DNA of 34,653 nt. It comes from Nitrospira sp. (lineage in GTDB: Bacteria; Nitrospirota; Nitrospiria; Nitrospirales; UBA8639). The notes beneath the pieces are model-generated. The model saw only the letters and a list, made by a program, of their open reading frames with translations, was not told where the DNA came from and searched no databases. Below, one piece after another: positions 20,955 to 32,185 of this stretch. The stretch covers positions 1-34,653 of the forward strand of contig WTGX01000016.1 in the NCBI GenBank assembly GCA_011523385.1, written 5' to 3'. The position numbers and the translations under genes are program-made. Position 1 is the first letter of the stretch. The number at the start of each line of letters is the position of its first letter.

Positions 20955-21323
20955 ATGATTGATACGCTTCCTTTACTTCCCGACGATCGAGCCGGTCAGT
21001 TCGATTCCCGCTATCGAGTCGTGCTCGTTGCCGCTCAACGTGCAAAACAACTCATGCGCGGGACCCCGCATGCACAAACGAGCAAATTCACCAAAGAAAC
21101 CTCCATTGCGCTCGAGGAAGTCTTGGGAGACAACGTGGAGTATTTGATGGGACAAGAAGCGCGTGAGGCGCTTCGTGAAGCCAGGAGAAGCCTGGACCGT
21201 GAATTCGAACCGGCGTTGTTGGCAGAGGCTGATGAAGATGCCAAGGAAATCAAGAAGCAACTCAGCGTCTACGTTGACGATTCGCCGCCGGAACCCGCCA
21301 CGGAGGCAGACGCCGAATCGTGA
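20955..21323 (+). CDS. rpoZ: RNA polymerase omega subunit
   Basis: A 122-residue omega subunit, which helps assemble beta-prime into RNA polymerase and contributes to a ppGpp site. The pattern DSRYRVVLVAAQRAKQL and the KETSIALEEVLG segment match the conserved core; the acidic C-terminal tail is longer than in E. coli (91 residues). AAGGAG at 20940-20945 supports the ATG. It overlaps coaBC by four bases, the common gmk-rpoZ-coaBC order. Confidence 0.92.
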   Translation: MIDTLPLLPDDRAGQFDSRYRVVLVAAQRAKQLMRGTPHAQTSKFTKETSIALEEVLGDNVEYLMGQEAREALREARRSLDREFEPALLAEADEDAKEIKKQLSVYVDDSPPEPATEADAES

Positions 21324-22576
21324 GCGAAAAGCCGTTGCAAGGCAAACGGATCGTCCTCTGCGTCACGGGCAGCATTGCGGCCTATAAAGCCGTGTTCCTG
21401 CTTCGGACGCTGGTCGAGGACGGGGCGGAGGTGTCAGTGGTCATGACGCCGTCCGCCGCGCAGTTCGTGGCGCCGCTGACCTTCGAAGTGCTGTCCGGGC
21501 GGCCGGTGTTGCAACGACTCTTTGCAGATGACCAACCCATGCCGCACCTGCAGGCGACGGAAGACGCGGACCTGATTCTTGTGGCCCCGGCGACCGCGAA
21601 CTCCCTGGCTAGATGTGCGCTGGGTTTGGCGGATGACCTGCTGGGTACGTTGTTCGTGTCCGCACGATGTCCCATTGTCATGGCCCCGGCCATGGATGTC
21701 GAAATGTGGGACCATCCTGCGGTGGCAGCGCATACGCGGACGTTGCGCGAGCGCGGGGTCGTGGTGCTGGAACCGGAGGAAGGCCCGCTGGCGTCCGGCT
21801 TGACCGGGAAAGGCCGGTTGCCTGCCGAACACGTGATTCTGGGTGCGGTGCGTTCTTGCCTGGCGCGTCGGCTGGACTGGGCCGGGCAGCGTGTGCTCGT
21901 CTCGGCCGGACCCACGCGGGAACCGATCGATGCGGTTCGCTTTATCACGAATGCCTCATCCGGAAAGATGGGATACGCGATGGCGGAAGCCGCGGCCCAA
22001 CGGGGAGCGGAGGTGTTACTCGTCAGCGGACCCACGGCGCTGCCGTGTCCTCCCAACGTGACGCGCGTTTCGGTGGTGACGGCTGAAGAGATGCATCGGG
22101 AATTGGATGACCGGTTTGCATGGGCCACCGTCCTGGTGATGACCGCGGCCGTTGGAGACTTTCGACCCCGGAACCCTTCATCCGAAAAAGTCAAAAAACA
22201 CGAATGGATCGGCGAGCCCCTGGATCTCGAGCGGACTCCGGACATCCTGCAAGCGTTGTCACGGAAACGGACGCACCACGTGCTGGTCGGGTTTGGCGCG
22301 GAATCCGGGAACCTGCCCGACAACGGCCGCAAGAAACTGCACCAAAAAGATCTCGATTTGCTGGTCGTGAACAGGATTACGGGGCCGCAATCGGCATTCG
22401 GCAACGAGACCAATGAAGTCATCCTCCTGCCTCGTCATGGAACGCCCATCGAAGTCGAACGCCTGCCGAAACGGCTTCTGGCCGATCGCATTTTGGATAC
22501 GGTTCTCGATCAATGTATCAGTTCCCCACCCTCTCGTTCTGAACAACCGCACGAAAGAATCCGCCGGATTCAGTAG
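21320..22576 (+). CDS. coaBC: Bifunctional phosphopantothenoylcysteine decarboxylase/synthetase
   Basis: A 418-residue CoaBC (Dfp) that joins cysteine to 4'-phosphopantothenate and decarboxylates the product in coenzyme A synthesis. The N-terminal flavin domain has CVTGSIAAYKAV, a His before ATEDADLILVAPATAN, and PAMDVEMW at 123-130. The C-terminal synthetase has VSAGPTREPIDAVRFITNASSGKMGYAMA and VGFGAES. Two active-site positions differ from E. coli Dfp: D126 in place of Asn125 and S159 (LASGLTGKGRLP) in place of Cys158. I believe both also occur together in some other phyla. Start is GTG overlapping the rpoZ stop. Confidence 0.95.
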   Translation: MSEKPLQGKRIVLCVTGSIAAYKAVFLLRTLVEDGAEVSVVMTPSAAQFVAPLTFEVLSGRPVLQRLFADDQPMPHLQATEDADLILVAPATANSLARCALGLADDLLGTLFVSARCPIVMAPAMDVEMWDHPAVAAHTRTLRERGVVVLEPEEGPLASGLTGKGRLPAEHVILGAVRSCLARRLDWAGQRVLVSAGPTREPIDAVRFITNASSGKMGYAMAEAAAQRGAEVLLVSGPTALPCPPNVTRVSVVTAEEMHRELDDRFAWATVLVMTAAVGDFRPRNPSSEKVKKHEWIGEPLDLERTPDILQALSRKRTHHVLVGFGAESGNLPDNGRKKLHQKDLDLLVVNRITGPQSAFGNETNEVILLPRHGTPIEVERLPKRLLADRILDTVLDQCISSPPSRSEQPHERIRRIQ

Positions 22577-22833
22577 TGCCCGGTCGTCAGTCTGACCCCT
22601 GCCAAATCCTGCTGCGTCAGCGATTTTCGTAGCTTCGCAGAGTTTTGCATATTTCACAAAGCCCCACTTTCGCCCTTTCCGTAAAGAGACCATTCCGCTT
22701 TCCCACCAGGACAACCCGAAACCCCTTTTCATACAACGAGTTGAAAGCAGCAACCCTCTCTGCTAGAGTAAAAGACCTGTCCGAAATTCCCTCAAGTCTA
22801 GAGCAGAACGCCACTGGGGCTTCGGTAAAAGAG

Positions 22834-23106
22834 ATGAGCACGATCAGTTTTGATACACATACGTTCGTGAAGCGTCTGACACAGGCGGGCATGCCGGAAG
22901 CTCAGGCCGAAGTGCTGGCAGACTCCCAGGCGAAACTGATTGATGAGAAACTCGCCACCAAGCATGACTTAAAGGAACTGGAAATCAGACTGGCCCACGA
23001 AATGAAGGAACTGGAAGCCCGGCTGGTGCTGCAACTCACGATTCGTATGGGCTCGATGCTGGTCGTCGGCATTGGCGTCGTAGCCACGCTGATCAAAATT
23101 CTCTGA
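22834..23106 (+). CDS. DUF1640-like coiled-coil membrane protein
   Basis: A 90-residue protein: MSTISFDTHTFVKRL, then an 'EAQAEVLADSQ' helix, a coiled coil (KHDLKELEIRLAHEMKELEARL) and a C-terminal hydrophobic helix (MLVVGIGVVATLIKIL). This matches small bacterial DUF1640/CCDC90-like proteins, which are common near mobile or accessory DNA and whose function is unclear. The frame is open back to 22645, but the added 63 residues are unlike the family. The start at 22834 follows a GGTAAAAGAG purine stretch. Confidence 0.75.
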   Translation: MSTISFDTHTFVKRLTQAGMPEAQAEVLADSQAKLIDEKLATKHDLKELEIRLAHEMKELEARLVLQLTIRMGSMLVVGIGVVATLIKIL

Positions 23107-23127
23107 GCGAGAGCAAACTGCTACCCT

Positions 23128-23268
23128 TGGTCATTCGCTTTCTACCTCGCCAACATTCCTCTTCGAAAATACGCCTCTTATTTACAAAAACTCTCTCGCG
23201 GCTTCCAAGACTTCCTAGACCGTGATCAGGTTCATGCTCCCATTGCCAAACTGCTGTATGTCCTCTAA
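23128..23268 (+). pseudogene. C-terminal remnant of an unknown gene
   Basis: After the DUF1640-like stop the same frame stays open to TAA 23266-23268 and reads like real protein: WSFAFYLANIPLRKYASYLQ, then LSRGFQDFLDRDQVHAPIAK. No start codon or ribosome binding site fits. It is probably the tail of a gene lost when the polysaccharide locus was rearranged. I do not recognise the family. Confidence 0.3.
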
Positions 23269-23307
23269 ATTACGAAAAAATATCACCTTCGGTTTGTGTC
23301 TAAAATC

Positions 23308-24057
23308 ATGCCTGTTAATGTCATCACTATCAAATGGGGCGACCGTTACGGGTCCCATTATGTCAATCGCTTGTATGCAGGAGTTCAACGCAACTTAAGT
23401 GCTGCATTCAGGTTTGTCTGCTTTACCGACAATTCGCAGGGGATTCGCCCCGAGGTAGAAGTCTATCCGTTGCCGGAAATTAGTCTTGAAGGCGCAACTC
23501 ACTTCACAAACGGTCGAAAACTAGGACTTTTTCATAGTGGGATCGGCAACTTGGAAGGTCCATGTCTCTACTTCGATCTGGATGTCATAATCGTCCGATC
23601 AATCGACTGTTTTTTCGAGTATATGCCCGGCGAGTTTTGTGTCTGCCGTGAGTGGCTCCCGCCCAATAAGCGCTTGTTTTATAAACTTTTTAACAATCCA
23701 ATTGGGGTGAATACTTCGATTTTCAGGTTTGAAGCAAATTTAATGCAATTTGTTATCGACAGGATGAACGAGGAGCTTCAGACCTTGAAAAACATCAATC
23801 TAGAGCAGAGGTGGGTCGCCCACGTTGTGGGAGAACAAGTTAATTGGTGGCCGTCGGAGTGGGTGTCCAGCTTCAAGCATAGAAGACCCATTTATCCATT
23901 AAGCTTTTTCTGGCCACCCGTATTGCCCCATAGAACACGGGTCATGGTATTCAACGGACCATTGAAACCCTCACATGCGGTAACCGGAAACTTTGAGTTA
24001 TCGCCTCGGCGTGTATGCCGTTCTGCACAGTGGGCAGTACAGCACTGGATTGATTAG
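23308..24057 (+). CDS. Putative glycosyltransferase, GT8-like
   Basis: A 249-residue protein that starts VNVITIKWGDRYGSHYVN, then FRFVCFTDN, and has the acidic metal-binding motif DLDVIIVRSID (DxD type), as in GT8-like sugar transferases. A GPCLYFDLD strand precedes the DxD and NTSIFRF follows it. The enzyme would add a sugar from a nucleotide donor in the cytosol; donor and acceptor are not predictable. I prefer ATG 23308; GTG 23296 is an alternative and neither has a clear ribosome binding site. It is the only plus-strand enzyme of the polysaccharide locus. Confidence 0.75.
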   Translation: MPVNVITIKWGDRYGSHYVNRLYAGVQRNLSAAFRFVCFTDNSQGIRPEVEVYPLPEISLEGATHFTNGRKLGLFHSGIGNLEGPCLYFDLDVIIVRSIDCFFEYMPGEFCVCREWLPPNKRLFYKLFNNPIGVNTSIFRFEANLMQFVIDRMNEELQTLKNINLEQRWVAHVVGEQVNWWPSEWVSSFKHRRPIYPLSFFWPPVLPHRTRVMVFNGPLKPSHAVTGNFELSPRRVCRSAQWAVQHWID

Positions 24058-24065
24058 AAACTATC

Positions 24066-24209
24066 AAGGAACCTCTGATTTATGCACTATCGGGCGCAGG
24101 GCTGCGTTGTGTTCTCGCTCAACCCTCACCTATCTCTATGATAAGCCTCGGGTTTCGCTCCGGGACGCCTTGCCCTGCATCCCGCTATCACAATAAATCT
24201 GTCCTCGAC
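24066..24209. mobile_element. Possible MITE or IS end fragment
   Basis: The left edge GGAACCTCTGATTTAT and the reverse complement of the right edge (CGAGGACAGATTTAT) are imperfect inverted repeats around 110 bases without a gene. Ends of this kind (GGAACCTCTGATTTAT) resemble those of some IS elements. No target duplication was confirmed. Confidence 0.3.
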
Positions 24210-24252
24210 GTTCTTAATCGGGGATCAGAGTTCCTCAAATAAATTGAAGGAG

Positions 24253-25554
24253 TTATGGACCGGCTGCTGGTGGCCTCGGCCCGGGATTCAGTCCGGCGCG
24301 GGCGAACAACTCATTGATGAGGGGATCTGATACATGCCTGCTTGCATCGAAGCTTTCAACTTTTTCGCTAAAATCTCTCTTCCAGTTCGTGTTGAGACCG
24401 CGAAAATGGTAGAAGAACATTTCTTCGGGACTCAGATCCCGAAGCGCATGCTGCTTCGGAAAGAAAAGACGGAACATTCGTTCGGAACATAACCTTTTCC
24501 GAACGCTTCCGTAGAGAGATTGGTGAGCCTCATCGTATAGACGAGGCAATCCGGTCAACTTGGCAAAGCCCCGGTTTTTGGGATAGGCGATGTGCAGTTT
24601 AAGGTAATCGATGTACCGAGGTTTGAAGGCAAATTTCAAACTGGAACCCCGACGTTCGCGATTTCTGAACCAGTATGAGTTGATACGTCGATTCGCCATC
24701 GCCGGTTGTCCCTGATACGGTGGGACAATGAACGAGTCGAACAACACCTCGACTACGCCGTTGCTTTCGCAATCGTGCAAATATTCTCTGAACGTCTTTT
24801 CTCCGCTGACCACCAGGCACTCATCGATATCCAGATTCAGGCACCATGCGTCGGCTGAACCAAAACGAAGCAGATAGTGGTTTTGTGCCCCGGGCTGGCA
24901 GAGGCGATTCTTGTGACTCCGCACCGGTCCATGGGGGAAGGGCCAGTCTACGAGCACAACGTCGATCTCCTCGTCCATCCGGGTCAGGGCCGCTGCAAGA
25001 TCATCGCGGTTGTCGCTCGCGTTGTCGTACAGGACGAGGCGGGACACGCCGTGCAGGCGGTGATGCCAACGGCACCAATCCTGAATCCACGGGAGGGGAT
25101 TATTCCGCTGTAACGTCATCAGGCCGAGGCGGTATGTTTCTGCCGGAGAAAGGCAGGGGGGCGGCGGTACCTCGATTTCCACGTGGAAGGATGGGAACGA
25201 GAAGCGGAGCGGCAGGTTCTTCCCTGTATTCGTGGTTTGGTCAAAGGTCAGTTCAAGGACGCATAGCTTTCGGTACTCTCGCTTGCGGTGAGGGATCAAC
25301 TGTCCATCGCAGGTGATCCTCAACTTCGCCATCTCATTCCGCAAATTGACCGGCGGAGGACCGATCGCCACCACTTTACGGTCGTCGTCACACCGGAACA
25401 CGTCGTAGAACAGCGTCCGCGAATCGTATTCGCGGTAATCGGTCTCTGTCAGAAGGGTATTATCGGCCGTACTGTGTCGCGAAAGAAAATCTCTCCTGCA
25501 CGCACAGTCTTTCGGTATCAGCACCGGGGTTGGTCGATAGATCAATATCCCCAT
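24253..25554 (-). CDS. Glycosyltransferase, GT92/DUF23-like
   Basis: A 433-residue protein starting MGILIYRPTPVLIPKD. The middle carries the GT92-like pattern: a WCRWHHRLHGVSRLVLYDNASD strand-turn (quoted in part), then NLDIDECLV with the DxD metal site, and late FYHFRGLNTNWKRDF. Such enzymes add a sugar to a surface glycan. ATG 25554 is preferred over the open frame to 25599, because a second copy of the first codons at 29505 also begins at this Met. The first 170 residues before the catalytic part are unassigned. Confidence 0.75.
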   Translation of the reverse strand: MGILIYRPTPVLIPKDCACRRDFLSRHSTADNTLLTETDYREYDSRTLFYDVFRCDDDRKVVAIGPPPVNLRNEMAKLRITCDGQLIPHRKREYRKLCVLELTFDQTTNTGKNLPLRFSFPSFHVEIEVPPPPCLSPAETYRLGLMTLQRNNPLPWIQDWCRWHHRLHGVSRLVLYDNASDNRDDLAAALTRMDEEIDVVLVDWPFPHGPVRSHKNRLCQPGAQNHYLLRFGSADAWCLNLDIDECLVVSGEKTFREYLHDCESNGVVEVLFDSFIVPPYQGQPAMANRRINSYWFRNRERRGSSLKFAFKPRYIDYLKLHIAYPKNRGFAKLTGLPRLYDEAHQSLYGSVRKRLCSERMFRLFFPKQHALRDLSPEEMFFYHFRGLNTNWKRDFSEKVESFDASRHVSDPLINELFARAGLNPGPRPPAAGP

Positions 25555-25785
25555 ACTTGCCTCATCCGAGACTTGACAAACACAAGAATACAGCGGCACC
25601 AGACTTATCAGCGAGCCTTCAGGATGTGCGTTCTGCGTGAAAGGCTAGACGCAAAGTGTTCGATGCTGGAAGAGTTGATAGTCAACCCCGGTGGATAGAG
25701 GTAAATTTGCCGAGCTCCGTGGCATCATAGTGGTGAAGGGCCATGCGGGAAGCACGATCTTTCTTGAGGCACCAAATGAACGGAT

Positions 25786-26826
25786 CTACAAGAAACACAT
25801 TTCAGCACAGTATGTTGTGAAAACAGAAGCTGCGTATCCAGCATACGTTTCTTGATCGGAGATATCGTATAGAAAAGTCCTATCGCTCACCACATCGATC
25901 ATCCGTTCCTCATATGTATCGTCATAAAACTTGAATCCGGTTTCGCACAAAAATAGTTGCCCTGTATTGTTTTCAATTAACACATCATGCGCGTAGAATC
26001 CCGGCCCCAAAATTTGTCCAATACGGTAACTGAATGCATGCAATTCTTCCAAACGCGGTACGACCAGTTTTTCACGCAGGTATACCAGAAGTTCACGATC
26101 TTTCGGAGTATCCTTGTTGTGCACCGATGGATTATTTTCCCTCACGTCTCGAGCGCGAACATAAATTCTTATCAAGTACGTGCCAATGCACATCAACCTG
26201 ATACATGTATAATAAACCGATTCTTTGAAGCGTACCGTTGTATCTATGAACTGCGTATTGTAACGTTCCCCGTCCAATTCTTGTAAATTGTCGACAATAA
26301 ATGCTCTTGAGGCGGAACCGAATCTGGAATTACTAAACACGCTGGTTCTTTGGTCAAAAGTGCGCCCAGGCACAGATATATCGTGTTCAGAGAAAAATAA
26401 GTTAGCTTCTTTCTTGTCTCTTATGATCTCCGCAATTCCGTGAAAGTTAAAAACCGCGGTTACATTTTGTAACAAATCATTCGGAAATTTGTATGGTTCA
26501 AGATCGTCTCGATCTTCATTGACGAGATTGACAAGGACAAGCGGCAGGCCGTCAGCCAAGCAAAGTTCACGATTCAGACTCTCATGGTCACCTATATAAG
26601 CTGATGCAATACCGCGTTGCCCCAACGCACTGCAAAACGGTGGGAAAAACCGACGAGACTTAACCTTGCCGCGAGCCCTCAGACCACGAGAACCCAAGGC
26701 AAGTATTAAAATTTTTCCTCTGACGTTAGATGGTTGAAACTTTCGTATCCGAAAATTTTCCTTCCAAATTCCAAACTTCTTTCTTGTCGAAGAATGAGAA
26801 ATGCGTTTTCTTATTGTCCTGAGCAT
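25786..26826 (-). CDS. Unrecognised protein in the glycan locus, possibly ATP-grasp
   Basis: A 346-residue cytosolic protein, without signal or membrane segments. The DNA is visibly richer in A and T than its neighbours, which suggests separate transfer. Features that recall ATP-grasp enzymes are DKKEANLFFSEHDISVPGR (Lys plus a 'x..gI.vP' turn), a central FIDTTVRFKESVYY strand, and HDVLIENNTGQLFLCE near residue 285, like the 'D.l....g....E.n' metal end of that fold. If correct, it would ligate an amino acid or similar group to a sugar or carrier. This is a pattern guess; no family was recognised with certainty. The start ATG has no clear ribosome binding site. Confidence 0.6.
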   Translation of the reverse strand: MLRTIRKRISHSSTRKKFGIWKENFRIRKFQPSNVRGKILILALGSRGLRARGKVKSRRFFPPFCSALGQRGIASAYIGDHESLNRELCLADGLPLVLVNLVNEDRDDLEPYKFPNDLLQNVTAVFNFHGIAEIIRDKKEANLFFSEHDISVPGRTFDQRTSVFSNSRFGSASRAFIVDNLQELDGERYNTQFIDTTVRFKESVYYTCIRLMCIGTYLIRIYVRARDVRENNPSVHNKDTPKDRELLVYLREKLVVPRLEELHAFSYRIGQILGPGFYAHDVLIENNTGQLFLCETGFKFYDDTYEERMIDVVSDRTFLYDISDQETYAGYAASVFTTYCAEMCFL

Positions 26827-26965
26827 GTTCTTTTTCGAGCCCTTTTGTGGCTGCGCTGCCCCTTACCTAATGTAAGTCCGAGTGGAGAATCAGGAATTGA
26901 CGGAATTATAGCGGTCGTGGTGACTATGGGAAAGGTTAATGAAAAAACCCGTATTGCCGCATCCG

Positions 26966-28006
26966 TCACACTTCATCACTACTTGGATTGCCCGCGAAAA
27001 GATCCAGGTACTGATCAACGATTCGATTCTTGTTGAAGGTCTCTTGCAAACGCCTGCGACCGCCCGCGACCAGCGTCTCGGCAAGTACCCTATCGTTACG
27101 CAATCGGCGAACAGCCGTGACGAAGGCATCAAGATTGTCGATGTCAACGAGCAACCCATTCTCGCTATCAGTCATGTACCAGTTCGGCCCTTCACTACGG
27201 GTCGCAACCACCGGCACGCCGGCTTGCCATGCCTCCAGGATCACGTTGCCGAGCGGCTCGCGCCGTGACGGCATTCCAAAAACGTCCGTTGCGGCGACGT
27301 AATGGATTGGTTCCTCCACCCAACCAACAAAACGGGTACGATCGGCTATACCCACCCGATGTGCCAGCTTTTCCAGCGATCGACGTTCCTCTCCGTCGCC
27401 GATCAGCCAGAGCCAAGCGTCCGGAATTCCCGCAGCCGCGCGAATCAGAAGATCATGCCTTTTTCTTGGCAAGAACCGGCCTACACCCGAGATTAAGAAA
27501 ACGTCCTCAGGTGTGTCGAGTTCGACCCGCGCCACCGGCACCGGATTCACCTCGCGGGCGAAGTTGGAGATGATGTGTACGGGCCGGGTCCAGCCTAGAT
27601 CTATGCAATGACTCCTGATGCCCGGCATGTTGCCGACCAATGCGTCGCAGCGGAAAAAGTGCTTCAAGTGCGGGGGAAAGTTCCCGAGCCGTGCCAGCTT
27701 CACTGCCCCTGGCCAGTCAGGAATTAGCCGTGCGGCGCGCGTCATCCAAGCCATGATGGCATCGGGTTGCCACTGTCGGAGCATCTTGCGCACCCGCCAT
27801 GGTAAGAGAAGACTTGACAGCGAGATGTATCGGTAATGATTCTCGATGATTGGACCAAGCGCTTCGATTTCTCTCCGCCATAAGCGCCGTGGACGAATGA
27901 CGAATCGTTGCTCCACACCTCGTTCGCCCAACGCATTGACCAGATTTACGAAGAAACGTTCCGCGCCGCCGTCCTTGCCGAAATGCATGTGTAAAATCTT
28001 CGGCAT
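26966..28006 (-). CDS. Glycosyltransferase family 4
   Basis: A 346-residue GT4 (GT-B fold) enzyme. The N-terminal domain starts ILHMHFGKDGGAERFFVNL, the acceptor-side pattern. The C-terminal domain has ISGVGRFLPRKRHDLLIRA, the LIGDGEERRSLE stretch, and the donor-binding SRREPLGNVILEAWQAGVPVVA with the E-x7-E pair. It should work at the inner face of the membrane on a lipid-linked glycan. It is the last gene before the fragmented segment. Confidence 0.92.
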   Translation of the reverse strand: MPKILHMHFGKDGGAERFFVNLVNALGERGVEQRFVIRPRRLWRREIEALGPIIENHYRYISLSSLLLPWRVRKMLRQWQPDAIMAWMTRAARLIPDWPGAVKLARLGNFPPHLKHFFRCDALVGNMPGIRSHCIDLGWTRPVHIISNFAREVNPVPVARVELDTPEDVFLISGVGRFLPRKRHDLLIRAAAGIPDAWLWLIGDGEERRSLEKLAHRVGIADRTRFVGWVEEPIHYVAATDVFGMPSRREPLGNVILEAWQAGVPVVATRSEGPNWYMTDSENGLLVDIDNLDAFVTAVRRLRNDRVLAETLVAGGRRRLQETFNKNRIVDQYLDLFAGNPSSDEV

Positions 28007-28116
28007 GATTACGTCTACCTATGTATCCGATGCCAATGAAGAAGCACGTGATAACGAAGCTGATAAATCAGATTATGTCAAGCTTGTATGCCGCCGCGTT
28101 CCACCAATAACCGTCT

Positions 28117-28248
28117 CTACTCCCGGATCGTGCAAGTCATTGCCTGCGTATTGCCGGCCAGCAACGGCGATGGCTGTACCAGAACCACCTTGAGTCCGGT
28201 CTCCCGGAGGAACTTCTTATCTTCGTCTACGGTACTGGCCTCCTCCAT
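28117..28248 (-). pseudogene. Remnant of an unknown coding frame
   Basis: 43 residues that read like protein (MEEASTVDEDKKFLRETGLK, then VVLVQPSPLLAGNTQAM) and stop at 28117. The frame is open some way upstream (TVRRLY) but meets a stop at about 28278. It lies between the intact GT4 gene and the GT4 fragment, in 299 bases with no complete gene. It is probably a leftover of the rearranged locus. Confidence 0.3.
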
Positions 28249-28305
28249 CCTGTAAAGCCGCCGCACCGTATTCGATCCGTCATCCGGTTATTCAGGCCCG
28301 TGTCC

Positions 28306-28623
28306 TTATCCACCGTCCAGCAGCTCCCGGTAGAGCGTGTTGAGTGCTGCTGCCTCGTCCTCGATCTGAAATTTTTCCTCGACGTGGCTCCGGGCCGCTG
28401 CTGACCATTGCTGCAGCGTGGCGGGCGAGGCAAGCGTTGCATCGACTGCCGCGCGCATTTGTTCCACGTTACCGGGTGGGATCAGGCGTCCGGTCTCGCC
28501 TTCCACCACCAACTCGTCGAATGCCCCAACCGTCGTAGCGATCACCGGGACACCGCATGCCATTGCCTCGAGCGGGGTCAGCCCGAAGCCTTCCCAGCGC
28601 TACGGGGCCACAAGCAGGTCGAG
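28306..28623 (-). pseudogene. C-terminal GT4 fragment, near-copy of 29588-29907
   Basis: About 106 codons that match the last part of the GT4 gene at 29588-30637 with roughly 17 differences in 320 bases by eye. The frame holds an in-frame TAG at 28600-28602 where the intact copy has CAA (VAP-stop-RWEGF versus VAPQRWEGF). Upstream of 28623 the similarity fades within 30 bases. No start is left, so no product is expected. The 28646-28820 stretch that follows holds nothing I can name. Confidence 0.85.
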
Positions 28624-28820
28624 TACCACAATGGCACTCGGCATTAATTGCACACAGCCGATGGAGATTCGGCGAATTCCCTGAATTCCATCGATCGTTA
28701 TACAGAGAAATCTGGATTCTTGTTGTCAAACTGGGTTGCGTCCCCTAGATTACGAAAAATCTACGCATCATCCAATGGAGTATTGAAAGGAGTCATCGTT
28801 TGGATTCAACCCTGAACAAC

Positions 28821-29165
28821 CTATGTGCGCTCATATGAAGAAACCGCTTGCGTTAAGGTGTCTTTCACCCAGGCGTTTAAAGTTTGATCCTCATCTGCCG
28901 CCGCGATGCTGATCATTTCGTGAATGTCTGGACCAACCCGGGCGACAAATTTGCCGGAGTATGATTTATACGGAGCGATTGCTCTCAGTGCACACTCATC
29001 CAGATAGACTTTCAGGGACTTTTTGAATTCACGCTTCAACTCAGCTACCGTTTTCCCGTAAAAATCCGCGCTGCCGGTTAATCCCAGGATCTCTCCACGG
29101 AACAATTCCGCATCCTGATCAAACACAATTTTTGCCTTCATGTTACCCAGCGTCATGACGTTCAT
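28821..29165 (-). CDS. hicB: HicB-family antitoxin
   Basis: A 114-residue HicB: an N-terminal degraded RNase H-like fold (KAKIVFDQDAELFRGEILGL, then TVAELKREFKKSLKVYLDEC) and a C-terminal ribbon-helix-helix region (FVARVGPDIHEMISIAA, DQTLNAWVKDTL), which binds operator DNA. It would neutralise HicA and repress the operon. The ATG overlaps the hicA stop by four bases (ATGA). Met9 (29141) is an alternative start. Confidence 0.9.
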   Translation of the reverse strand: MNVMTLGNMKAKIVFDQDAELFRGEILGLTGSADFYGKTVAELKREFKKSLKVYLDECALRAIAPYKSYSGKFVARVGPDIHEMISIAAADEDQTLNAWVKDTLTQAVSSYERT

Positions 29166-29416
29166 GGCCTGACTCCGTTCTCTTCCAGGAATTTTCTGAT
29201 TGTTGTGACAACGCCCTTGTTAGTATTGGGTGAGGGATGCGGCCGATGAAAGACGTGGACCCTGTTGAAAATAAAAACCGAAATACGTGAGCCTTCGCGT
29301 TCTTCGATTACAGCACCTAGTTCCCTGAAAAGCGCCATCATATCTGTCCATTTGATATTGCCGCTGACAGGATGTTTGAAGATTAATGCAAGCGTTCTCT
29401 CATTCTTGCGCTTCAC
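29162..29416 (-). CDS. hicA: HicA-family mRNA interferase toxin
   Basis: An 84-residue HicA, a double-stranded RNA-binding fold that cleaves mRNA. It has WTDMMALFRELGAVIEE, then EGSRISVFIF, the HRPHPSP segment with the catalytic-type His, and KGVVTTIRKFLEENG, in the order of the family's longer subtype. Start is GTG 29416. A TATAAT-like -10 and a palindrome lie just upstream. It looks intact. Confidence 0.9.
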   Translation of the reverse strand: MKRKNERTLALIFKHPVSGNIKWTDMMALFRELGAVIEEREGSRISVFIFNRVHVFHRPHPSPNTNKGVVTTIRKFLEENGVRP

Positions 29417-29426
29417 GCCTAAATGA

Positions 29427-29441
29427 TACTATATTATAGTA
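29427..29441 (-). promoter_or_regulatory. Palindrome over the hicA -10 region, candidate HicB operator
   Basis: TACTATA and TATAGTA are perfect inverted arms around one T. On the minus strand it contains TATAAT about 20 bases before the hicA GTG. HicB proteins with ribbon-helix-helix domains bind such palindromes at their own promoter; the role here is inferred. Confidence 0.45.
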
Positions 29442-29505
29442 CTTCCGTAAACCATCTGTCTTCCGGTATCAGCACCGGAGTAGGTCGATAAATCAGCACT
29501 CCCAT
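29434..29505 (-). pseudogene. First codons of a second GT92-like gene
   Basis: 23 codons starting MGVLIYRPTPVLIPEDRW, then FTEVL and a stop. The first 14 residues equal the start of the GT92-like gene at 24253-25554 except for one conservative change. The break after ED coincides with the hicA promoter region, so HicAB seems to have replaced the rest of the gene. Confidence 0.8.
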
Positions 29506-29587
29506 GCCCACCGCCTTCATGCCTTGGTAAACCCAAGATCAGGTAGATCAGTATGCCCCGCAGTTTGTGAAAGAGTCATCGCCTCTC

Positions 29588-30637
29588 TTATCCACCGTCC
29601 AGCAACTCCCGGTAGAGCGTGTTGAGGGCCGCCGCCTCGTCCTCGATCTGAAATTTTTCCTCGACGTGGCTCCGGGCCGCTGCTGACCATTGCTGCAGCG
29701 TGGCGGGCGAGGCAAGCGTTGCATCGACTGCCGCGCGCATTTGTTCCACGTCGCCGGGGGGGATCAGGCATCCGGTCTCGCCTTCCACCACCAACTCGTC
29801 GAATGCGCCGACCGTCGTTGCGATCACCGGCACACCGCACGCCATTGCCTCGAGCGGGGTCAGCCCGAAGCCTTCCCAGCGTTGCGGAGCCACGAGCAGG
29901 TCGAGCGCCTGATACCAGCGCGGCATTTCCTCCACCGGCACCTCCGGCAGGAACAGAATCCGGTCCTGAAGCCCGGCTCGTATCACCTTCTCGCGCAGGC
30001 CCTGTAGAAACGGAACATGCTTGTGCGCGGCGCGGCCCATCACCAGGGCAGTCACGCCGGTGTGCCGGGGCAGCACTTCGAGCATCGCGTCGACGAACAC
30101 GTCCGTACCCTTTTGGCGCCGGATGCGCCCGTAGCACCCGATGGTCACGTTCCCGGACAGACCGAGCGAACGCCGGTGCGCGCGCCGGTCCCCGGGGGGG
30201 TGGAACGTCGCGATGTCGATTCCGTGCATGATCACGCGCGCCGGTCGTCGCAGATAGGATGCGGATTTGCGTGACGTGGCCACGACGGCGTCCATGCCCG
30301 AAATCAGAAGGCGGGTGTAGCGCGTGTGGTGCCGCTGCGAGGCGGAGGTGAACACGAGCTTCAGGCGCTTTCTCAGAACGTGACGCAGGATGAGACCCAT
30401 GAGCATCTCGGTGTTGCGCCGCGCGTGCCAGACCCGGCACGTCCGGCCGGACATCCGGATCACGGACCATAACGGTATGTGGGGGACGTGAGCCGGCAGC
30501 CCCGGGCCGGTCGCCGCGATCCCGATCGATCTGGCCTGCACCGGCAACAACCGCACGATCGTTGCCGTGACGCCCGACAGCCGTCGTTTCAGATTCGCCG
30601 CGATCACTTCGATCTTGTCGTCGATCTTCTCGGGCAT
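29588..30637 (-). CDS. Glycosyltransferase family 4
   Basis: A 349-residue GT4 enzyme. The N-terminal domain includes HIPLWSVIRMSGRTCRVWHARRN; the C-terminal domain has GCYGRIRRQKGTDVFVDA, ILFLPEVPVEEMPRWYQALD, and the donor site RWEGFGLTPLEAMACGVPVIA with the E-x7-E pair. The whole C-terminal DNA is duplicated at 28306-28623. It lies 40 bases from pyrE on the same strand. Long antisense frames across it are shadows. Confidence 0.92.
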   Translation of the reverse strand: MPEKIDDKIEVIAANLKRRLSGVTATIVRLLPVQARSIGIAATGPGLPAHVPHIPLWSVIRMSGRTCRVWHARRNTEMLMGLILRHVLRKRLKLVFTSASQRHHTRYTRLLISGMDAVVATSRKSASYLRRPARVIMHGIDIATFHPPGDRRAHRRSLGLSGNVTIGCYGRIRRQKGTDVFVDAMLEVLPRHTGVTALVMGRAAHKHVPFLQGLREKVIRAGLQDRILFLPEVPVEEMPRWYQALDLLVAPQRWEGFGLTPLEAMACGVPVIATTVGAFDELVVEGETGCLIPPGDVEQMRAAVDATLASPATLQQWSAAARSHVEEKFQIEDEAAALNTLYRELLDGG

Positions 30638-30677
30638 CGATGGCTATCCGCGACATCAGCTATTGGCCGGGTGTCAA

Positions 30678-31271
30678 TCACGTGCCGGGTTGGGCGGTTT
30701 TCAAATCGTCCAGGGTTAACAGACTGATCAATGACACCCCTTGCGCTTCGATTTTCTGTTTGCCGTCCTGTTCCTGCCGGTCCACGATGACCATGACGTG
30801 TGAGACGTACAATTGTGCTTCACTGGCGGCCTGGATGGCTTGCAGGAGCGACCCGCCGCTTGTCAGCACGTCATCGACGACCAGCACGCGATCATTGGAT
30901 TTGATTGCGCCTTCGATTCGTTTCCCCAGTCCATGATCCTTGGCTTGTTTTCGCACGACAAAGGTGCGGTAGGTTTTCCGAGGTTGAGTCGAAAAGGCAT
31001 AATCGGATATAGCTGTTGCCAGTGGAATGGCTCCGATTTCCAGGCCGCCCACCGCTTCGAAGGAAAGGTCGCGGATGGCCGCGCACGCGAGTTGCGCCAC
31101 GAGCCACCGGGCATCGGGATGCGCCAACAGGGCCCTGCAGTCCACGTAATAGGGACTGGTTTCTCCGGAGGCCAGCACAAAGCCGTTGTCCGGGTTCCAT
31201 TGAAACGCCTCGTATTGCCAAAACAGGGTTGCCAGTTGTCGGGAACTGTCCATGAAAAGCAGGTCTAGCAT
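30678..31271 (-). CDS. pyrE: Orotate phosphoribosyltransferase
   Basis: A 197-residue PyrE that joins orotate to PRPP, giving OMP in pyrimidine synthesis. The PRPP-binding motif VLVVDDVLTSGGSLLQA is complete, RKQAKDHGLGKRIEG is the flexible catalytic loop, and SGETSPYYVDCRALLAHP is the orotate-side segment. Met7 (31253) is an alternative start. It is divergent from the gene at 31334 with 62 bases between. Confidence 0.95.
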   Translation of the reverse strand: MLDLLFMDSSRQLATLFWQYEAFQWNPDNGFVLASGETSPYYVDCRALLAHPDARWLVAQLACAAIRDLSFEAVGGLEIGAIPLATAISDYAFSTQPRKTYRTFVVRKQAKDHGLGKRIEGAIKSNDRVLVVDDVLTSGGSLLQAIQAASEAQLYVSHVMVIVDRQEQDGKQKIEAQGVSLISLLTLDDLKTAQPGT

Positions 31272-31333
31272 TTGACGACCGGGAATGACAACGATGAAAA
31301 TCGGCGCGACGGTTTCACCTGTCGGACACGATC

Positions 31334-32185
31334 ATGTTCAAGATAAAAAAGCGGCCGCTTAAGCCGGTCAAAGAGCCGCAGCTCTACAACGTGTTGGAGA
31401 ATTACACGGATTTCGATCCTCCGGGGAACGTCATGGTCTGCGCCATGGCGGGCGAGGAGAATATCGAGCATCACGCCAAAGTCCTCGGGGAAAGTTATGA
31501 GATTCCGCTGGAAGACATGCGCCGGCTGTTGACGGACGGGGGGCTGTATACGTATCCGGAAGCCGGGGGTGTGGTGACGCGCGGGATGTTCGTGTGCCGG
31601 ATCGACCCGGCCGGGCCCAAGCAGACCTGGGTCCTGGATTTGGAGCAGACCGCCCAGGCCGAGCAACTCGCGCGGTTTTCGGATATTCCCCTGGCCGAGG
31701 CCGTGGAGCACGTGTTTTACAGGGGGCTTCCCGGGGAATTGCAGGAACGCCTCACACAGAAGAATCTGGGGCTTGATTACAGCAAGCTGGAGCGGTCGGT
31801 GGCTCGATGGGGAGATATTCGCTACATTGATTTTCGCAAAGACTGGTCGCCCTATTTCAAGCGCAAGTGTTCGATGCCGGATGGGTCGATGGTCGAAACC
31901 GGCGGAATCGGGGAATTTGCCGAACTCCACGGCATTACGGTGGCGCAGGCGCAGACGTTGATGGAGCAGGGGGGTACGTTGGAGCTTGAAGACGGGGTGC
32001 TGGCCTGCCAGGTGGTCAATAACCAACCGACGGTGGCCCGCTTCAATGCCAAACAGTACGCCAAGGCCAAGGAGTTGATGGACACCAAGGGCCTTCACGT
32101 CATGGACGCGCTGAGTGAGATGGCGTTGAACGACCCCGTGCTGATGCGCGCGTTACGGCGGGCCGAACGGGAAAGCTCGGGCTGA
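31334..32185 (+). CDS. Unrecognised cytosolic protein
   Basis: A 283-residue protein (MFKIKKRPLKPVKEPQLYNV...) with no signal, membrane segment or known motif. Visible stretches are PPGNVMVCAMAGEENIEHHAK near the start, a PGELQERLTQKNLGLDY middle, and a C-terminal MEQGGTLELEDGVLACQVVN segment with helical tail. It is acidic and well-formed, with good codon use like the housekeeping genes here, so it is a real gene, perhaps one limited to this phylum. It is divergent from pyrE; a shared control region is possible. Function is unknown. Confidence 0.8.
   Translation: MFKIKKRPLKPVKEPQLYNVLENYTDFDPPGNVMVCAMAGEENIEHHAKVLGESYEIPLEDMRRLLTDGGLYTYPEAGGVVTRGMFVCRIDPAGPKQTWVLDLEQTAQAEQLARFSDIPLAEAVEHVFYRGLPGELQERLTQKNLGLDYSKLERSVARWGDIRYIDFRKDWSPYFKRKCSMPDGSMVETGGIGEFAELHGITVAQAQTLMEQGGTLELEDGVLACQVVNNQPTVARFNAKQYAKAKELMDTKGLHVMDALSEMALNDPVLMRALRRAERESSG

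Follow-up and report, generated by a model that had tools for sequence, protein, structure and literature searches.

A repeated GT4 glycosyltransferase gene tail beside a HicAB pair is probably a recombination scar in a variable glycan locus of a Nitrospira-related bacterium

Why does the end of a glycosyltransferase gene occur twice in one locus, with a HicAB pair between the copies, and how did one copy come to lack its beginning? We addressed this question in a 34,653-nucleotide stretch of a Nitrospira sp. genome (contig WTGX01000016.1; this whole stretch is hereafter called the window). Self-comparison, a check proposed by the first-pass annotation, recovered one long direct repeat (28305-28623 versus 29587-29905; 319 bp, ungapped, E 7e-142) that spans the final 105 codons and the stop of a GT4 gene, with 302 of 319 bases the same (17 mismatches, 94.7% identity). 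One copy ends an intact glycosyltransferase gene of 349 aa (29588..30637, minus strand; Pfam PF13692/PF00534), which adjoins pyrE and is the anchor of the locus. The other is a 3′-terminal copy without the 5′ part (28305..28623, minus strand), and Pfam places both in GT4 families. Codon 252 reads CAA in the intact gene and is an in-frame TAG in the fragment; besides this stop, just two amino acid differences separate them. Between the copies sit HicAB, identified by Pfam matches, and a GT92 5′-end relic cut at 29456 (29456..29538, minus strand). The first-pass annotation had reported a GT4 end present twice at about 95% identity, an amber codon in the fragment, HicAB between the copies and the start of a second GT92-like gene nearby, all of which stand. 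No third copy of the GT4 tail was found in the window's own genome.

The repeat belongs to a variable glycan locus whose left boundary is a gene that we take, from its Pfam Pribosyltran match, to be pyrE (30678..31271, minus strand), and whose right boundary in the window is presumably coaBC (21320..22576, plus strand). Beyond the fragment lie a stretch that we call the type B context (28209..28304, minus strand), which in the sister loci L003 and L005 immediately follows an intact GT4; GT4b, a second GT4-family glycosyltransferase gene by Pfam (26966..28006, minus strand), which is also downstream of GT4 in L003; a conserved hypothetical gene (25786..26826, minus strand) found with GT4b in L003, L005, and L011; an intact GT92-family gene (24253..25599, minus strand; PF01697); and x253, a hypothetical gene of the variable locus (23296..24057, plus strand). 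The GT92 relic is 73.5% identical to the start of the window's own GT92, 86.7% to L009 and 84.3% to L005. The spacer between hicB and the fragment (28624..28820, minus strand) contains recognizable pieces: 28698-28760 resembles the region upstream of x253, and 28624-28653, adjoining the fragment, resembles in antisense the final, C-terminal codons of the F24 glycosyltransferase gene (F16, F23, F24, F26, and F27 are clusters from our ORF comparison). The deletion claimed earlier is borne out by these relics, to which a GT92 gene and the F24 gene have both been cut in the window. Folding gave no support for a structured RNA in the spacer (z -0.28), and Rfam had no match at gathering score in 22500-31500. 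The locus also holds a coiled-coil gene (22645-23106; it resembles CCDC90, at a score below cut-off) that contains short internal repeats, which are more numerous in its L005 relative.

HicA (29162..29416, minus strand; 84 aa, GTG start) scores 29.5 bits with PF07927 (cut-off 27), and HicB (28821..29165, minus strand; 114 aa) scores 58.2 bits with PF05534 (cut-off 21). With both scores above cut-off and a gene overlap of 4 bp, the two are predicted from gene content to form a toxin-antitoxin (TA) pair. A perfect 7-1-7 palindrome over a -10-like hexamer upstream of hicA (29427..29441) may be operator-like; it is imperfect in L011 and L004. HicAB has a promoter-like site, one of four in 28200-29700 where 1.2 are expected. 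HicB (omega 0-0.08) is well conserved across three genomes and HicA (omega 0.12-0.42) less strongly, values that would fit a working pair. HicA is 66.7% identical to an annotated plasmid HicA, and 214 of the 216 plasmid records with HicA relatives fall below 60% identity. Four stretches of viral contigs fit a pattern and none of them encodes a HicB relative; PDB sequences yielded no HicA match and only two for HicB, both at E 0.5 or more, and neither protein had a hit in PADLOC. Among the window, L004, and L011, HicAB DNA identity is 95-97%, compared with about 91% for pyrE. Synonymous divergence of HicAB is lower than that of a "core" set that includes GT4 itself, both between the window and L011 (11/133 vs. 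82/339, p 5e-5) and between the window and L004 (17/130 vs. 177/730, p 0.004), and does not differ significantly between L004 and L011 (p 0.22); in the L004 pairs, GT4 and F04 counts were reused from an earlier substitution analysis, and a different genome pair supplied approximate numbers of sites for them.

The nearest named loci are metagenome-assembled genomes (MAGs) labeled Nitrospira or Nitrospirales, and "Nitrospira sp. bin75" (G005) ranks in the window's genus. The GTDB genus bin75 was named Candidatus Nitrosymbion in 2024 and is described as mostly sponge-derived, and its unique orthologs are reported to include several TA modules (PMC11812461). The window probably belongs to this genus, and its source bacterium is related to nitrite oxidizers that live with sponges. 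Intact GT4 occurs in 10 of the 14 genus genomes, its own included (88-100%), within a variable glycan locus. Downstream of pyrE-GT4 follow variable glycosyltransferase, methyltransferase, and hypothetical genes, a set that ends at coaBC in the window. On the same contig and within about 20 kb, pyrE and coaBC were found in 7 of 14 genomes; they are far apart in both single-contig genomes (G009 and G010) and on separate contigs in five. G005 carries F16 and coaBC directly after pyrE and its GT4 cassette on another contig, and the cassette seems to have been relocated as a whole; the pyrE-coaBC interval (L136, contig C115) is nearly empty, and the cassette lies on L006 (contig C92). GT92 is intact in only two of the 14 genomes, the window's own and G004 (L009), with a start fragment in G012. 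Extra partial GT4 copies number four, in three of the ten GT4 carriers (one in the window's genome, G000; two in G008, the source of L004; and one in G012, the source of L005), leaving seven carriers with none. Among the matches listed, all four reach residue 349 and none begins before residue 132; a DNA search recovered the same 14 GT4 tails. As a control, all 71 GT4 loci of other taxa (L012-L082), drawn from 80 of 208 matches, with some flanks ending at contig ends and at distances of 51-68% identity, gave a single hit for extra GT4 pieces, 30 bp in reverse orientation, which we took as chance.

Alignment with the sister loci resolved the window into segments of different affinity. From pyrE through GT4 and the GT92 relic it is collinear with L009 (isolate p16x63bins.32) up to 29456, where it switches; the GT4-GT92 order that the first-pass annotation had suggested seeking in other strains is thereby present in L009, as pyrE-GT4-GT92. 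From 29456 to 28305 the window is instead collinear with L004 6784-7931 (HicAB, spacer, and GT4 tail; 1151 bp, 91.7%), and the HicAB-spacer-fragment junction falls at the same place in both, within about 4 bases. Since this stretch and its junction recur in L004 (SB0677_bin_15), an independent assembly, the repeat can hardly be due to chance or to a one-off assembly error. Downstream of the fragment comes sequence that in L003 and L005 trails an intact GT4, with GT4b next in L003. The two GT4 copies of the window consequently have different downstream contexts, each of which occurs elsewhere behind a single or intact GT4 (GT4-GT92 and GT4-GT4b): the intact copy has the L009 type and the fragment the L003/L005 type. 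The GT4 tails of L004 and L005 likewise have differing contexts. In L011, a single GT4 is followed directly by HicAB and then GT4b, with about a dozen bases resembling the end of the GT92 relic. Because F24 C-terminus-like codons abut the fragment, its start is a non-homologous junction, the F24 3′ end being joined to about GT4 codon 245. A chimeric GT92-GT4 protein considered for L005 was rejected, as its parts lie in different frames.

The substitutions between the copies comprise 14 synonymous and 3 non-synonymous changes (dS 0.196, omega 0.066), which suggests that the fragment diverged mostly as a working gene. Eleven of the 17 differences are assigned to the fragment by majority polarization, several sites being weakly polarized, and only two of these 11 are non-synonymous, compared with 70-75% expected under neutral decay (p 0.0002-0.0006). 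The full L004 gene and its second fragment differ by 28 synonymous and 9 non-synonymous changes (omega 0.088) and the L005 pair by 13 and 10 (omega 0.27). The two window copies share a tract of 118 bases free of differences (p 0.004-0.008). In a tree of the GT4 arms, copies group by genome: the two window copies at 91/90, which falls short of the tool's star, the L005 pair at 98/98, and the L004 trio at 96/92. AU tests, run on groups with a first FastTree already seen beforehand, reject grouping by junction (window fragment with the second L004 fragment, p 0.0035), grouping by context (the type B group of window fragment, L003, and L005, p 5e-5), the second L005 copy with the second L004 fragment (p 2e-4), and the intact window copy with L009 (p 6e-4). 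The arms and the junction have different histories. Divergence climbs toward the GT4 3′ end in eight of nine full-gene pairs, most steeply in the three L004 pairs; because this rise is so general, raised 3′ dS alone is not evidence of recombination, and a recombination hotspot proposed on that ground was dropped.

Our preferred reading, to which we give a probability of roughly 0.6, is that the fragment is a recombination scar: GT4-anchored recombination would have stacked haplotypes of the locus, and end-joining would have truncated the displaced copy. In this scenario, pyrE-GT4 would anchor the variable glycan locus on its left side. Incoming DNA of another haplotype (GT4-GT92...HicAB) would recombine with the resident through pyrE/GT4 homology, and its other end would join illegitimately into the resident GT4, leaving an intact GT4 upstream and a 5′-truncated GT4 tail before the resident cassette (GT4b and the next gene). 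Later exchange between the GT4 arms would complete the picture; we infer all three steps, the homologous end, the illegitimate join, and the arm exchange, from the comparisons above. In favor of this reading are the two contexts, the junction common to the window and L004, the mainly synonymous differences between the copies, the AU rejections, the low HicAB divergence in two of three pairs, the difference-free tract, and the GT4 tails of L004 and L005; counting against it are the non-significant L004-L011 comparison, the 91/90 support for the window copies, and the seven GT4 carriers that lack an extra copy. The non-homologous join was located (F24 3′ end to GT4 codon ~245) and no homologous crossover point was; no donor strain was seen among the genomes compared. 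Of proteins tied to competence, ComEC and DprA are present, but both also occur in E. coli.

The first-pass annotation instead explained the repeat by simple duplication in place, followed by insertion of HicAB. As sole cause, in-situ duplication is rejected on contexts and substitution pattern: the two contexts differ and occur separately in other genomes, the copies diverge mainly at synonymous sites, and the GT92 relic, at 73.5%, is too far from the window's own GT92 to be a close copy of it. Insertion of HicAB after the duplication is likewise unsupported, because in L011 only one GT4 precedes HicAB and in L004 HicAB and the fragment meet at the same junction, and the module may for these reasons be older than the repeat or have traveled with it. 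An amended version, in which a GT4-led cassette was duplicated in tandem in an ancestor and then underwent differential loss, truncation, and gene conversion in each genome, is in our view rather unlikely. It would explain why the order of GT4, partial GT92, and partial GT4 is common to the window and L005, why the window and L004 have a junction in common, and, through conversion, the difference-free tract. However, it predicts grouping by context, which the AU tests reject unless conversion was frequent. Had the resident gene converted the fragment and decay then set in, most changes on the fragment side should be non-synonymous, whereas two of 11 were.

Islands are known to restore gene ends at trmE or tRNA genes, and an integrative element using the GT4 3′ end as its attachment site in this way would account for the 3′-terminal position of all four extra copies and for modules that, in L011, L004, and L005, begin close to the stop of GT4. 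We hold this to be very improbable, since arm lengths vary from 59 to 218 codons, unlike a short att core, and no integrase, transposase, or other recombinase was found among 39 Pfam-scanned proteins (those of the genes called in the window's pyrE-coaBC interval plus part of the sister-locus ORFs), although a recombinase could have been lost. An equally slim chance is given to a chimeric assembly of co-occurring strains: the window's genome assembly has 38 contigs, its named relatives are MAGs, and contigs of mixed strains can become joined at GT4, yet the same 1151-bp module and junction exist in an independent assembly and the copies differ at 17 sites. Least credible of all is a silent-cassette system in which GT4 tails act as gene-conversion donors that diversify the C-terminus of GT4. 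Although the repeats lie on one strand and a conversion tract is possible, the fragment offers only two amino acid differences apart from its stop, and the L004 and L005 pairs differ mainly at synonymous sites, per site (omega 0.09 and 0.27).

TA or defense-like genes stand next to six of the 14 GT4 3′ ends and glycan or hypothetical genes next to the other eight, the latter assigned by ORF clustering and not all Pfam-scanned; an association of TA/defense modules with GT4 ends is suggestive. The six comprise the full L004 end (HEC-01), the first L004 fragment (HicAB), the full L005 end (PDC-S01, separated from it by about 200 bp of type B context), the second L005 copy (another, distinct HicA whose HicB-like partner scores below cut-off), the L011 end (HicAB), and the window's intact end (HicAB behind the GT92 relic). 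HicAB is found in the window, L004, and L011, PDC-S01 in L005, and HEC-01B in L004; HEC-01A was scored on the L006 copy, which is 94% identical to that of L004, and copies this close occur only in these two loci, with relatives at 35-42% elsewhere. As a locus-specific feature, the DUF4143/PDC-S01 gene is a weak candidate, with relatives in 13 of 14 genomes and abundance genus-wide. In L005, the stop codon that ends the second GT4 copy is where this other HicA and its weak HicB-like partner (L005:13466-14001) are inserted; at that point the second L004 fragment runs straight into shared context. None of the literature matches listed describes, in its title or the start of its abstract, TA modules bordered by glycosyltransferase tails, and none of the papers listed in a separate search used the term HEC-01.

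Hypervariable O-antigen and capsule loci exchange glycosyltransferase cassettes between core genes and leave gene remnants. The present locus resembles them in cassette swapping between core genes and in its remnants, and differs in that 3′ tails of a single anchor gene recur, with TA/defense-like modules alongside. In the type VI secretion arrays of Vibrio cholerae, effector-immunity modules are described as sequentially displaced, and homology-facilitated illegitimate recombination has been proposed (PMC5361080); a conserved anchor stretch, an incoming module, and a displaced 3′ remnant or old genes downstream would recur here, whereas our anchor is a glycosyltransferase and the cargo consists of glycan, TA, and defense-like genes in place of effector-immunity pairs. 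Core defense hotspots of Pseudomonas aeruginosa likewise have a variable interval beside core genes, and transfer by homologous recombination in the flanks, which would leave no scars derived from mobile elements, is suggested for them (PMC10250203). Unlike these hotspots, our locus holds mainly glycan genes and its anchor-gene tails look scar-like. How surface-glycan and defense loci beside core genes come to be rebuilt without recognizable mobile elements is a question raised for these hotspots (PMC10250203). The GT4 anchor tails, present in three of ten genomes, would be a readable record of such splices, the order of which is testable by strain comparison.

HicAB might discourage loss of the segment through recombination between the repeats, which, if so, would give a chromosomal TA pair a concrete role. 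TA genes in a recombination-removable segment are also known in sgiAT of the island SGI1 (PMC5006074) and tvrAT of the pneumococcal tvr locus (PMC6265443). sgiAT is reported to stabilize SGI1, the excision of which requires an IncA/C plasmid and a site-specific recombinase (PMC5006074). tvrAT is reported to suppress its recombinase, with no addiction effect in the experiments described and with TA homologs between repeats (PMC6265443), and because of this pneumococcal case the stabilizing role proposed for HicAB is weakened. A wider version of the idea is in our judgment doubtful. In it, the 3′ end of GT4 would serve as a docking arm that needs no integrase, TA/defense-like modules bordered by GT4 tails would pass between Nitrospirales symbionts of sponges through ordinary homologous recombination in GT4, and HicAB would prevent looping-out between the repeats.

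Within the genus, full-length HicB relatives (88-100%) were found in the window's genome (G000) and three others (G013, G008, and G005), while G013 and G012 have one truncated relic each and G008 has two; all these close relatives and relics are on contigs bearing the GT4 cassette, and the remaining HicB matches are at most 49% identical. No HicA was found beside the full-length HicB of G005 (L006:16962-17306), which adjoins HEC-01B/A and is possibly an orphan antitoxin. The left boundaries of the truncated relics (L004:12998-13147, L004:14100-14354, L005:18749-18883, and L011:8833-9048) fall within about 20 bases of each other. The relics of L004 (14100) and L005 abut F26, the gene next to coaBC, and the L011 contig ends at its relic, near which lies a PIN-domain protein (L011:8065-8442) that we take to be VapC-like.
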